Shown here: positions 14,127 through 17,428 of the stretch, piece by piece
Layout: each line of letters begins with the position of its first letter
How positions within the stretch are numbered: position 1 is the stretch's first letter
NCBI GenBank assembly: GCA_903903975.1
Contig: CAIVAS010000031.1
Coordinates: 1 to 33,830, forward strand
Origin: an uncultured Burkholderiales bacterium
GTDB taxonomy: Bacteria; Pseudomonadota; Gammaproteobacteria; Burkholderiales; Burkholderiaceae_E
Direction: 5' to 3'
Length of the DNA stretch: 33,830 bases
The notes under the pieces: generated by a model
The model's input: the letters and a program-made list of their open reading frames with translations, nothing else
Told to the model about the DNA's origin: nothing
The model's database searches: none
Program-made: the position numbers and the translations under genes

Positions 14127-15812
14127 TCAGGCCGCGCGCCGCGTCGCGCGGTCGCCGGCGTGATCGGCCAGACCGAAGCGGTTGGCCGCACTCAGCAGTG
14201 CCCGCAGCGAGGCCACCACGATGCTGCGATCGATGCCGACGCCGAAACGCGCGCCGGTCACGCCGTCGCTGGTCGCCTCGATGAAGGCCACCGCGCGGGC
14301 ATCCGACCCCGAATCGATCGACCGCTCTTCATAGCTGTCGACACGCAGGGGCAGGCCAAGCGCATGGACGGCCGCATCGATCGGGCCATTGCCTTCGCCG
14401 TGCAGCACATGCGTGACGCCGTCGATCGAGACGGTGAGGTCGATCTGATGGCCGCCGTCGGTGCCGACCATGCGGTGCGACAGCAGCTTGATGCGGGCGT
14501 CGTCGTGGAGGTATTCGGTGTTGAAGAGGCGCCAGAGATCGTCGGCGGTCACTTCGGTGCCATGCTCGTCGGTATGGCGCTGCACGATCGAGCTGAACTC
14601 GACCTGCAGGCGGCGCGGCATCACCAGACCATGATGGCGCTCGAGCAGGAAGGAGATGCCGCCCTTGCCCGACTGGCTGTTGACGCGGATGACCGACTCA
14701 TAGGTCCGCCCGAGATCAGCCGGGTCGAGCGGCAGATAAGGGACTTCCCAGAGCGAGTCGGGCTGCTGGACGGCAAACCCTTTTTTGATCGCGTCCTGGT
14801 GCGAGCCCGAGAAGGCGGTGAACACCAGATCGCCGACATAGGGATGACGCGGATGGATCGGCAGCTGATTGCAGTGCTCGACCGTGCGGGCCACCTCATT
14901 GATGTCGGAGAAGTCGAGCTTGGGGTCGACGCCCTGTGAATAGAGGTTCAGCGCCAGCGTGACCAGGTCGACATTGCCGGTGCGCTCGCCGTTGCCGAAG
15001 AGGCAGCCCTCGACCCGGTCGGCACCCGCCATGACGCCGAGTTCGGCAGCGGCCACGGCCGTGCCGCGGTCATTGTGGGGATGCAGGGAGATGATGGCCG
15101 ATTCACGGTTGGGCAGGTTGCGGATCATCCACTCGATCTGGTCGGCATAGATGTTCGGCGTGGCCGACTCGACCGTGGCAGGCAGGTTGAGGATGACCTG
15201 ACGCTGCGGCGTCGCGCCCCACTCCTTCATGACCGCGACGCAGACATCACGCGCGAATTCGAGTTCGGTGCTGGAGAACACCTCGGGGCTGTATTCAAAG
15301 CCCCAGTTGGTGCCCGGGCGCGCGGCCAGCAGGCGCTTGACCACCCGGGTGCTGCTGATGGCCAGCTCGGTCACTTCCTCTTTGCTCAGATTGAAGACAA
15401 TGCGCCGAAAGACCGGTGCGGTGGCGTTGTACAGATGCACCGTGGCGTTTTTGGCGCCTTCGATCGACTCGACCGAGCGGGTGATCAGGTCTTCGCGGGC
15501 CTGGGTCAGCACGCTGATCACGACATCGTCGGGCACCAGACCCTGTTCGATGATGTGGCGCACGAAATCGAAGTCGGTCTGCGAGGCGGCCGGAAACCCC
15601 ACCTCGATTTCCTTGACGCCGATCTTCAGCAGAGTCTCGAACATGCGCAGCTTGCGCGCGGTGTCCATCGGTTCGAAAAGTGCCTGATTGCCGTCGCGCA
15701 GGTCGGTCGACAGCCAGCGGGGTGCTGTGTCGATGGTTCGGGAAGGCCAGCTGCGGTCGGGCAGGTCGATGACCGGGAAAGGGCGGTATTTGCCAGCGGG
15801 CGATTTCATCAT
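14127..15812 (-). CDS. leuA: leuA, 2-isopropylmalate synthase
   Basis: The product has 561 residues, the length of the longer LeuA type 2 form. It condenses acetyl-CoA with 2-oxoisovalerate in the first committed step of leucine synthesis. The TIM barrel has the substrate/metal block [11 protein letters not shown] (from residue 35) and the metal motif HPHNDRG (His244, His246). The C-terminal LeuA dimer domain (about 430-555) normally binds leucine for feedback inhibition. AAGGAG lies 10 bp before the first ATG at 15812; a second ATG follows directly. The gene is preceded by a leucine-rich leader peptide and stem-loops, pointing to leucine-dependent control of expression as well. Confidence 0.96.
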
Positions 15813-15828
15813 GATCTCAAGGCTCCTT

Positions 15829-15991
15829 CGGTTGCGGTGGGGTCTGCAACCGGAACAGGGAGCACAGAGGCAGACGCCTTATCGGCTGGCCTCCCGGGCA
15901 CCCCCTGTTGCGGTTGGGGTTCGGGTGGGCCGGGGTGGCGTTACTGACTGGTACTCAGGCGCCCTGAACGGGCAGCAGACGACCCCGGCCC
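15829..15991 (-). promoter_or_regulatory. leuA leader RNA with competing stem-loops
   Basis: Reading the minus strand, a 10-bp perfect stem pairs 15991-15982 (GGGCCGGGGT) with 15936-15927 (ACCCCGGCCC). Its first arm lies inside the leader peptide frame just after the leucine codons. Next, 15916-15903 pairs with 15860-15847 over 14 bp with one mismatch. The distal arm of that stem (CGGTTGC, 15852-15846) can instead pair with GCAACCG at 15835-15829, a perfect 7-bp hairpin that ends right before the leuA AAGGAG. These pairings are mutually exclusive. No clear U-run follows, so the control could be attenuation without a standard terminator, or control of translation. Confidence 0.55.
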
Positions 15992-16047
15992 GTGCCTAGT
16001 CGTAGCAGGGACACAAGCGTGATCTGGGTCAGCGAAACGCAAGTCAT
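15955..16047 (-). CDS. leuL-like leucine-rich leader peptide of leuA
   Basis: This 30-codon open frame starts ATG and ends TGA, 142 bp upstream of leuA. Seven of its 30 residues are leucine, including LVSLLRL at positions 11-17, where codons 14-17 read CTG CTA CGA CTA. CTA is rare in this GC-rich DNA, and rare leucine codons are the hallmark of leu leader control regions. The codons lie just before the 5' arm of a 10-bp perfect stem. A TTGACA -35 element lies upstream. I infer a ribosome-stalling sensor of leucyl-tRNA supply. The position and codons are seen; the function is inferred. Confidence 0.75.
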   Translation of the reverse strand: MTCVSLTQITLVSLLRLGTGRGRLLPVQGA

Positions 16048-16053
16048 CCCGAG

Positions 16054-16083
16054 AGCCTAGTCGCGAGCCGGTGCGCTTGTCAA
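16054..16083 (-). promoter_or_regulatory. candidate promoter of the leuA leader
   Basis: A perfect -35 hexamer TTGACA lies at 16083-16078 and a weaker -10 TAGGCT at 16059-16054, with 18 bp between. Seven bases downstream of the -10 is the A of the leader peptide ATG at 16047. Confidence 0.5.
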
Positions 16084-16177
16084 CCGGCTCGGACCGACGG
16101 CTGTCTCCTGAGCGGGTGATCAGGGGTGCTCGCCGTGGCTCAGTGTGGTGCTCTGTGGCGTATTCAGTGGCCTGAGA

Positions 16178-17428
16178 TCAGCCGGTCAGAACGCCGACCA
16201 ACGCGGCTGTGATGCAGGTCGACAGGAGTCCGGCCGGCAGCGATCGGATAGCCAGACGGCCGACCTCAGTGCGACGCTCCTCGGGCATCAGCGGTGCCAT
16301 GCCGCCCAGCATGATTCCGACGCTGCCGAAGTTGGCAAAGCCTGCGAGGGCGTAGGTCATCAGCAGTCGGCTGCGCGCAGACAGGGCCTCGGGCGGCAGC
16401 GAGGCCATGTCGGCAAAGGCGAGGAATTCATTGAGAACGGTCTTCTTGCCCAGCAACTGGCCGGCGGCGCCGGCTTCGTTCCACGGTATGCCCACCAGCC
16501 AGGCCAGCGGCGCGAAGACGCTGCCCATGATCCGTTCGGCCGATACCGGTGCGCCGGCCACGGCCGGCAGGAGCACGAGGCCCTGATCGACCAGCGCGAC
16601 CAGTGCAACGAAGACAATCAGCATTGCGACGATGTTCAGCAGCAGTTGCAGACCTTCGAGGGTGCCGCGCGTCAGTGCGGCGATCGCGCTCGCATCTTCG
16701 CGCTGCATCGCAAGGCTCGATCGATCGGCAGGCTGATCCGACGGCACCATCAGGGCGGCCACCGCGATCGCTACCGGAATCGCCACCACCGAGGCGACCA
16801 GCAGATGGCCGAGCGCCTGCGGAACGATCGGCTTGAGGATGGTTGCATAGAGCACCAGCACCGTCCCGGCAATGGTGGCCATGCCGCAGTTCATGACCAT
16901 GAAAAGTTCGCCGCGACTCATGGTGGCCAGCCAGGGTCTGACCACCAGCGGCCCTTCGATCATGCCGACGAAGGCGTTGGCTGCCGCCGATACGCCGACC
17001 GCGCCGCCGATGCCCAGCGTGCGATTGAGCAGCCAGGCGAAGGCCTCGACCACGCGCTTGAGAATGCCCCAGTGAAACAGCACCGCCGACAGTGCCGAGA
17101 TCAGCAGCACCAACGGTAGCGCCTGGGTGGCCAGCACGAACCCGGCGCCCGGGCTGACCGGGGTAAAGGGCAGGGCGCCACCACCGAGGTAGCCGAAGAC
17201 GAAGGAGGTGCCGGCGGTACTGGCCAGCATCAGTGCATCGAGGACACCGTTGCTGCGTTCGAGCAGCCAGCTCAGTCCGGGCAGCCAAGTGAATGCCGCG
17301 ATCAGCACCAATGCCAGTGCGATGCCTGCGGCGACCGTTCGCCAGGCGATCAGATCGCGTCGCTCCGAGGCGAGCCATGCGAGTCCGAGCATGGCCAGCA
17401 CACCGAATCCACTATGAATCATTGCCAT
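16178..17428 (-). CDS. concentrative nucleoside transporter family protein (NupC-like)
   Basis: The product has 416 residues and is hydrophobic throughout. The concentrative nucleoside transporter signature SAAANAFVGMIEGP lies at 147-160, followed by LVVRPWLATMSRGELFMVMNCGMATIAGTVL. A second conserved block near the C-terminus (LLGKKTVLNEFLAF ... RSRLLMTYALAGFANFGSVGIMLGG) is also present. The family imports nucleosides with H+ or Na+. The usual GQTEAP core reads GMIEGP here, so substrate preference may differ from E. coli NupC. AGGAG precedes the ATG at 17428 by about 9 bp. It diverges from fadD and lies upstream of the leuA leader; 130 bp separate its stop from the leader peptide. Confidence 0.88.
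   Translation of the reverse strand: MAMIHSGFGVLAMLGLAWLASERRDLIAWRTVAAGIALALVLIAAFTWLPGLSWLLERSNGVLDALMLASTAGTSFVFGYLGGGALPFTPVSPGAGFVLATQALPLVLLISALSAVLFHWGILKRVVEAFAWLLNRTLGIGGAVGVSAAANAFVGMIEGPLVVRPWLATMSRGELFMVMNCGMATIAGTVLVLYATILKPIVPQALGHLLVASVVAIPVAIAVAALMVPSDQPADRSSLAMQREDASAIAALTRGTLEGLQLLLNIVAMLIVFVALVALVDQGLVLLPAVAGAPVSAERIMGSVFAPLAWLVGIPWNEAGAAGQLLGKKTVLNEFLAFADMASLPPEALSARSRLLMTYALAGFANFGSVGIMLGGMAPLMPEERRTEVGRLAIRSLPAGLLSTCITAALVGVLTG

Follow-up and report, generated by a model that had tools for sequence, protein, structure and literature searches.

The window, that is, the whole stretch of 33,830 nucleotides analysed here, carries a leuA gene on its minus strand. The region ahead of this gene contains a short leucine-rich frame and the elements listed below in the direction of transcription.

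16078–16083, minus strand: −35 hexamer TTGACA, unchanged in all 12 genus members and placed 18 nt ahead of the −10 hexamer
16054–16059, minus strand: −10 hexamer TAGGCT (TANNNT), which ends 6 nt ahead of the leader ATG; TANNNT-N6-ATG in 12 of 12 genus members
15955–16047, minus strand: leader peptide frame, ATG to TGA, 30 codons, MTCVSLTQITLVSLLRLGTGRGRLLPVQGA, recurring in the genus
15997–16008, minus strand: Leu sensor codons CTG CTA CGA CTA (codons 14–17); the CTG and both CTA codons do not vary among the 12 genus members
15982–15991, minus strand: strand 1 of hairpin I, GGGCCGGGGT, over Gly-Arg-Gly codons, pairing with strand 2
15927–15936, minus strand: strand 2 of hairpin I, ACCCCGGCCC, with compensatory changes; hairpin I as a whole occupies 15927–15991
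15847–15915, minus strand: hairpin II, a long imperfect stem of 68–70 nt with no U-run behind it, assessed by z-scores and by an arm-exchange test
15823–15826, minus strand: leuA Shine-Dalgarno (SD) site GGAG, assigned from the sequence; a third hairpin may sequester it (covariation not clear, 12 of 120)
14127–15812, minus strand: leuA, 2-isopropylmalate synthase, 561 aa; TIGR00970 leuA_yeast, 791 bits against a cut-off of 697

The family search places the gene downstream of the leader with the long, leuA_yeast type of 2-isopropylmalate synthase. The leader frame contains seven Leu among its 30 codons, and 142 nt separate its stop codon from the leuA ATG at 15812. The initial annotation had described a frame of 30 codons at 15955–16047 with seven leucines, CTG CTA CGA CTA at codons 14–17 and a distance of 142 bp between its end and leuA; reading of the minus strand confirmed each of these points. 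Within the whole window, on both strands, this is the sole ATG frame of 10–60 codons with at least three Leu and at least two CTA in four codons. The Leu run CTGCTACGACTA is found one further time in the genome, where the phase, judged by eye, is apparently Cys-Tyr-Asp-Tyr.

The leader frame precedes leuA in all 12 genomes of the genus. The CTG, the CTA and the last CTA codon are invariant in 12 of 12 members; CGA stands between the two CTA codons in five close relatives, and the remaining seven members have CTG CTA CTA. The Leu run starts at codon 14 in 11 members and at codon 18 in L009, being in frame in all 12. The N-terminal half of the leader peptide drifts among the 12 sequences: amino-acid changes are numerous there, and L009 carries an insertion of 12 nt. 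The indels ahead of or inside the Leu run in the genus alignment are multiples of three, and a one-base indel at the stop codon in four sequences makes the frame end one codon earlier. What is kept appears to be the codons and not the entire peptide, and from this conservation of codons and frame the leader is predicted to be translated.

A second leuA homologue, of the short type, is present in five of the 12 genus members (G004, G006, G008, G010 and G011; loci L125–L129), and these short-type loci have no evident Leu leader by eye. Among the leuA matches, the window's own genome has the long type only.

A leuA-like match was found in 94 of the 101 related genomes searched. The relatives set was composed of 41 long-type leuA loci with up to 450 nt upstream of each, short-type homologues and a 67-residue fragment (G048:C67) being left out. 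A leader was defined by rule as an ATG frame of 10–60 codons with at least four Leu in six codons, or with at least three Leu of which at least two are CTA in five codons. Such a frame is present in 35 of these 41 loci, against none in antisense and 1.0 on average in dinucleotide shuffles, and the other six have no leader by the rule. The comparison proposed in the initial annotation, namely whether the frame and its Leu codons are kept while other codons drift, thus came out in favour of the leader both in the genus (12 of 12) and in the related long-leuA loci (35 of 41). Among the best 80 loci from genome contigs, 38 have a leader by the same rule (antisense, 2; shuffles, 2.7), three of them duplicating loci of the relatives set; leaders in these 80 loci occur in Paraburkholderia, Burkholderia, Pandoraea, Acidovorax, Azohydromonas and three cyanobacteria. 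The leader peptides belong to several types of differing sequence, with Leu codons CTG CTA CTA, CTA xxx CTA or CTA CTA CTA depending on the sub-type. Removal of three duplicates (L044, L045, L076) and of 11 frames judged doubtful by eye (L018, L036, L052, L053, L054, L057, L061, L091, L111, L117, L119) from the 73 rule hits left 59 leaders, the ATG being set by hand in seven. A DNA pattern search across the family was too unspecific: most of its matches were judged unrelated.

The rarity of CTA, also pointed out in the initial annotation, is borne out by the codon counts: in 14 long frames of the window, assumed to be genes (four of them were checked by family search), 4 of the 742 Leu codons are CTA. 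At this rate the probability of at least two CTA among seven Leu is 0.0006, a value calculated post hoc. Within the genus, 11 leuA genes are complete, and none of their 531 Leu codons is CTA. Across the 59 leader frames it accounts for 131 of 436 Leu codons, and across 26 named leuA genes for 13 of 1150; the CTA share of the leaders is about 27 times that of the genes.

All 12 genus members have the arrangement TTGACA-N18-TANNNT-N6-ATG, a spacing that would put the first nucleotide of the transcript on the A of the leader ATG or right next to it. The leader start therefore looks leaderless, as far as promoter spacing can predict it. A generic promoter scan gave no promoter at the leader because the −10 hexamer matches three of the six consensus bases; we assign one nevertheless because the spacing is conserved in 12 of 12 members. 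In the wider collection TANNNT ends 5–9 nt ahead of the ATG in 42 of 59 leaders, while none of 20 downstream control offsets gives more than 6 of 59, and a −35 element with at least four matches is found in 29 of 59. No SD-like word (GGAG, GAGG or AGGA at −16 to −4) is present in any of the 59. When all 70 non-duplicate rule hits are taken, TANNNT precedes any qualifying ATG in 48, or in 40 if the ATG is that of the shortest frame, and SD-like words number two.

Strand 1 of hairpin I starts 5 nt past the last Leu codon in all 12 genus members. All 22 sequences compared (12 from the genus and ten from the sister class described below) form seven consecutive pairs, and both-side changes are seen at three positions of the helix (L037, L009, L020). 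Eight pairs are kept in L009 and nine in L013. The z-scores of this hairpin are between −2.8 and −4.8 in all 12 genus members. The proposed sensor part, consisting of the Leu codons, the frame and hairpin I, is well supported by this sequence comparison.

Hairpin II has z-scores of −3.2 to −5.9 in all 12 genus members, for segment limits set after seeing the folds. Permutation tests in the genus used five of the 12 sequences, one per lineage, and upon exchange of the hairpin II arms between these five lineages the true pairing was the best of 120 assignments. The minimum free energy fold of the full free RNA includes hairpin II in four of five structures inspected. Ensemble folding covered ten of the 12 genus sequences (L013 and L043 were left out); for the RNA downstream of strand 2 the outer pairs of hairpin II exceed a probability of 0.5 in only one of the ten (L005), and these ensembles often favour the 3:4 and SD hairpins over hairpin II. 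What appears conserved, and is supported by the comparison, is the capacity of hairpin II to form before the leuA SD site.

Several other pairings in the genus are thermodynamically possible but gained little or no support from arm exchange, as assignments as good as the true one numbered 34 of 120 for the 3:4 hairpin, 12 of 120 for the SD hairpin, 104 of 120 for the strand 2:strand 4 pairing and 108 of 120 for the P helix. An antiterminator formed by strand 2 with the next strand is likewise possible as a pairing, but covariation support for it is absent (104 to 110 of 120 assignments as good). A pseudoknot is unsupported in the genus sequences. A long helix masking the SD site (anti-SD helix) is absent from the genus, which has only short pairing stretches, and these are unsupported (102 of 120). 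With strand 2 freed, the predicted pairing of the SD site goes up in four of ten genus sequences (L003, L005, L007, L009) and is approximately unchanged in six, so folding does not give the expected direction of the switch. Folding with the ribosome in place or with strand 2 freed is thus ambiguous, four of the ten sequences behaving opposite to the expected direction.

The consensus scan found no terminator-like site with a U-run at 15700–16200. Rfam, which includes a leucine leader family, gave no match at the gathering score, either for the window or for 20 related loci; at E values up to 1, the lone match at 15780–16120 is a microRNA family on the other strand (E 0.19). As neither a U-run terminator nor an Rfam match was found, the leader does not qualify as a transcription attenuator of the textbook type. 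The parallel that the initial annotation drew with enterobacterial leu leaders is incomplete, since the consensus scan found no U-run terminator and the downstream switch appears to differ.

The sister class mentioned above is represented by ten loci from Acidovorax, Azohydromonas, Paracidovorax, a Burkholderiaceae bacterium and four further relatives. It has strands 1 and 2, and downstream of them, instead of the genus arrangement, a helix P enclosing strand 2 and a small hairpin. One member, L037, fails the leader rule and was retained for its strands 1 and 2. In seven of the ten sequences (L088, L092 and L121, being close to others, were left out) the arms of both helices fitted better within than between species, 24 of 5040 assignments being as good for helix 1:2 and 38 of 5040 for helix P. 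In the seven sequences compared strands 1:2 and helix P would cross each other. With strand 1 blocked, helix P reaches at least 0.5 in only three of the ten loci (L017, L037, L107).

In six of the ten sister-class loci (L085, L088, L092, L107, L113, L121) the stretch GGCCCRCGAAC, formed by the end of strand 2 and the linker, is complementary to the leuA SD region with one bulge. This near-invariant anti-SD stretch adjoins strand 2 and is separated from its partner by a variable spacer of 55 to 138 nt. Covariation in the anti-SD helix is confined to one position (A-U in three loci, G-U in two, G-C in one). Over seven mixed sequences 46 of 5040 assignments were as good; among five loci carrying the helix the figure is 48 of 120, which is not significant because the helix is nearly invariant among its carriers. 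The helix is predicted in both folding states in four of the six carriers. The complementarity suggests a translation-level control of leuA in these loci.

A second small frame before leuA was also observed, with a motif of approximately R-L-x-x-G-C-Q-A-x-x-x-W/R-Q-P-G-S lying over a hairpin, about 100–135 nt upstream. By a strict pattern it occurs in 10 of 121 loci (L015, L062, L082, L091, L094, L096, L099, L103, L104, and L076 as a duplicate of L015), which belong to betaproteobacteria, alphaproteobacteria and cyanobacteria. By eye, the stop codon of this frame seems to lie within the leuA start in eight of the nine distinct loci (TGA in ATGTTGA or a similar sequence), and the frame might couple its translation to that of leuA.

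Most probably, the leader is a leucine-specific, ribosome-dependent attenuator of leuA; this degree of confidence concerns the Leu-codon sensor and not the output step. The suggestion of the initial annotation that leuA responds to the supply of leucyl-tRNA is supported by the promoter spacing, by the covarying hairpin after the Leu codons and by the excess of CTA. According to this scheme the leuA mRNA would begin at the leader AUG, and a ribosome would load on this 5'-terminal AUG. Its speed over CUG-CUA-(CGA)-CUA would report the level of charged Leu-tRNA, chiefly of the one reading CUA. A ribosome held at the Leu codons would cover the 5' part of strand 1 and hinder hairpin I, the downstream fold would then change, and leuA expression would rise. 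Given the usual footprint of a ribosome, a stall at the last CTA would mask only about half of strand 1, which counts against the scheme.

With regard to the output step, the lack of a U-run terminator in the consensus scan makes control of leuA translation initiation the most likely one, and this is our first choice, held with about even confidence. The main alternative within the same scheme is that transcription terminates at hairpin II or beyond it, with the help of Rho or without a U-run. It can be formulated as the same sensor with a transcription output, in which hairpin II replaces the terminator, either U-less or with Rho, and is prevented by stalling at the Leu codons; it overlaps with the explanation preferred here, and we regard it as quite possible, though on the improbable side. 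Hairpins I and II follow one another in the manner of strands 1:2 and 3:4 in a textbook attenuator, and the arms of hairpin II match best within species. A transcription output is also favoured by the leaders of genus g2, a member of the same family, in which a GC-rich hairpin with a U-rich tail can be recognised by eye. However, no U-run terminator was found in the window, and the antiterminator partner has no covariation support. The g2 leaders (L024–L028, L031, L033) are of the type MD.R..LLL..LF..GRR, and the terminator-like hairpin following them is clearest in L024, L026 and L028, unlike in the window's genus; the output step may have changed between related genera.

Two further explanations dispense with the sensor. 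A regulator might bind the conserved block as an RNA or DNA element, in which case the Leu codons of the frame and its translation would be incidental; this we consider quite improbable. Strands 1 and 2 are indeed conserved at the nucleotide level, and mutations in the leuA leader of S. coelicolor do not fit classical attenuation, according to PMC1262725. Yet what the leader sub-types have in common is in-frame Leu codons and not one DNA word, and a regulator-bound element is also hard to reconcile with the large excess of CTA in the 59 leaders over the 26 named leuA genes. That the leader is a chance frame in GC-rich intergenic DNA is scarcely credible. The frame is short and is overlapped by other short frames, but the fact that all 12 genus members have it, Leu codons included, means that it is not due to chance; together with the uniqueness of the codon cluster in the window and the antisense and shuffle controls on the 41 and the best 80 loci, this led us to reject a chance origin. 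A leucine-sensing attenuator thus remains the preferred reading of the leader.

Proteobacterial attenuators were surveyed by Vitreschak et al. in 2004, reportedly with coverage mainly of the gamma and alpha groups. Leucine leader peptides of leuA have been described in gammaproteobacteria, namely in Shewanella (PMC2659441) and in the leu operon of E. coli and Salmonella (PMC6123439, a review which also mentions putative leaders and terminators before branched-chain genes of various Gram-negative species). In Epsilonproteobacteria, e.g. C. jejuni, leuA is preceded by LeuL, a short frame that contains rare Leu codons and has been proposed as an attenuator (PMC3847290), and in Actinobacteria the LEU element, or leuL1 leader, is located upstream of leuA (PMC1262725, PMC8079986). 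The accessible portion of PMC2965389 makes no mention of leuA, and that of PMC7822408 describes no leuA leader. In the literature searched, as far as its accessible text goes, no description of a betaproteobacterial leuA leader or of its two RNA arrangements was found.

The leader shares with gammaproteobacterial leuL a frame with Leu codons ahead of leuA as well as a hairpin expected to re-form after passage of the ribosome, and differs from it by the predicted leaderless start, other folds, no U-run terminator found and no Rfam match. It resembles leuL1 of S. lividans at least as closely as the enterobacterial leu attenuators (PMC8079986): the latter is described as a leaderless Leu-run leader ahead of leuA for which no typical Rho-independent terminator is present, and both properties are predicted here from the promoter spacing and the terminator scan. 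Neither of them, therefore, is unheard of. In contrast to the LEU element, the run CTGCTACGACTA lacks, by inspection, a complement of GGAG and so has no match to the SD site; nor is there a supported pseudoknot in the genus, which is characterised by rare CTA codons and a pair of large hairpins in tandem. C. jejuni LeuL and the present leader are alike in being short frames that precede leuA and contain rare Leu codons. Frames there were sought with a ribosome binding site, whereas none is seen here, and short RNAs end there soon behind the stop codon. The general kind, leucine leader attenuation, is thus known, and the leader described here looks like a variant of that kind.

Attenuation by amino acids is usually taught as termination at a hairpin with a U-run, governed by a leader peptide having its own ribosome binding site. 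In the leaders studied here the sensor codons and the adjacent hairpin are kept, while the U-run hairpin and the ribosome binding site seem to be missing. We tentatively propose, as a possibility still short of probable, that the long-type leuA genes of betaproteobacteria have a class of leaderless, terminator-less leucine attenuators. A ribosome on the 5'-terminal AUG would sense CUA, and the switch would act on leuA translation, via a long-range anti-Shine-Dalgarno helix in some families or a long hairpin ahead of the SD site in this genus. The leader itself is a conserved small gene of the sort that annotation may miss, and the set of leaders offers a comparative system for the coupling of leaderless translation to regulation.
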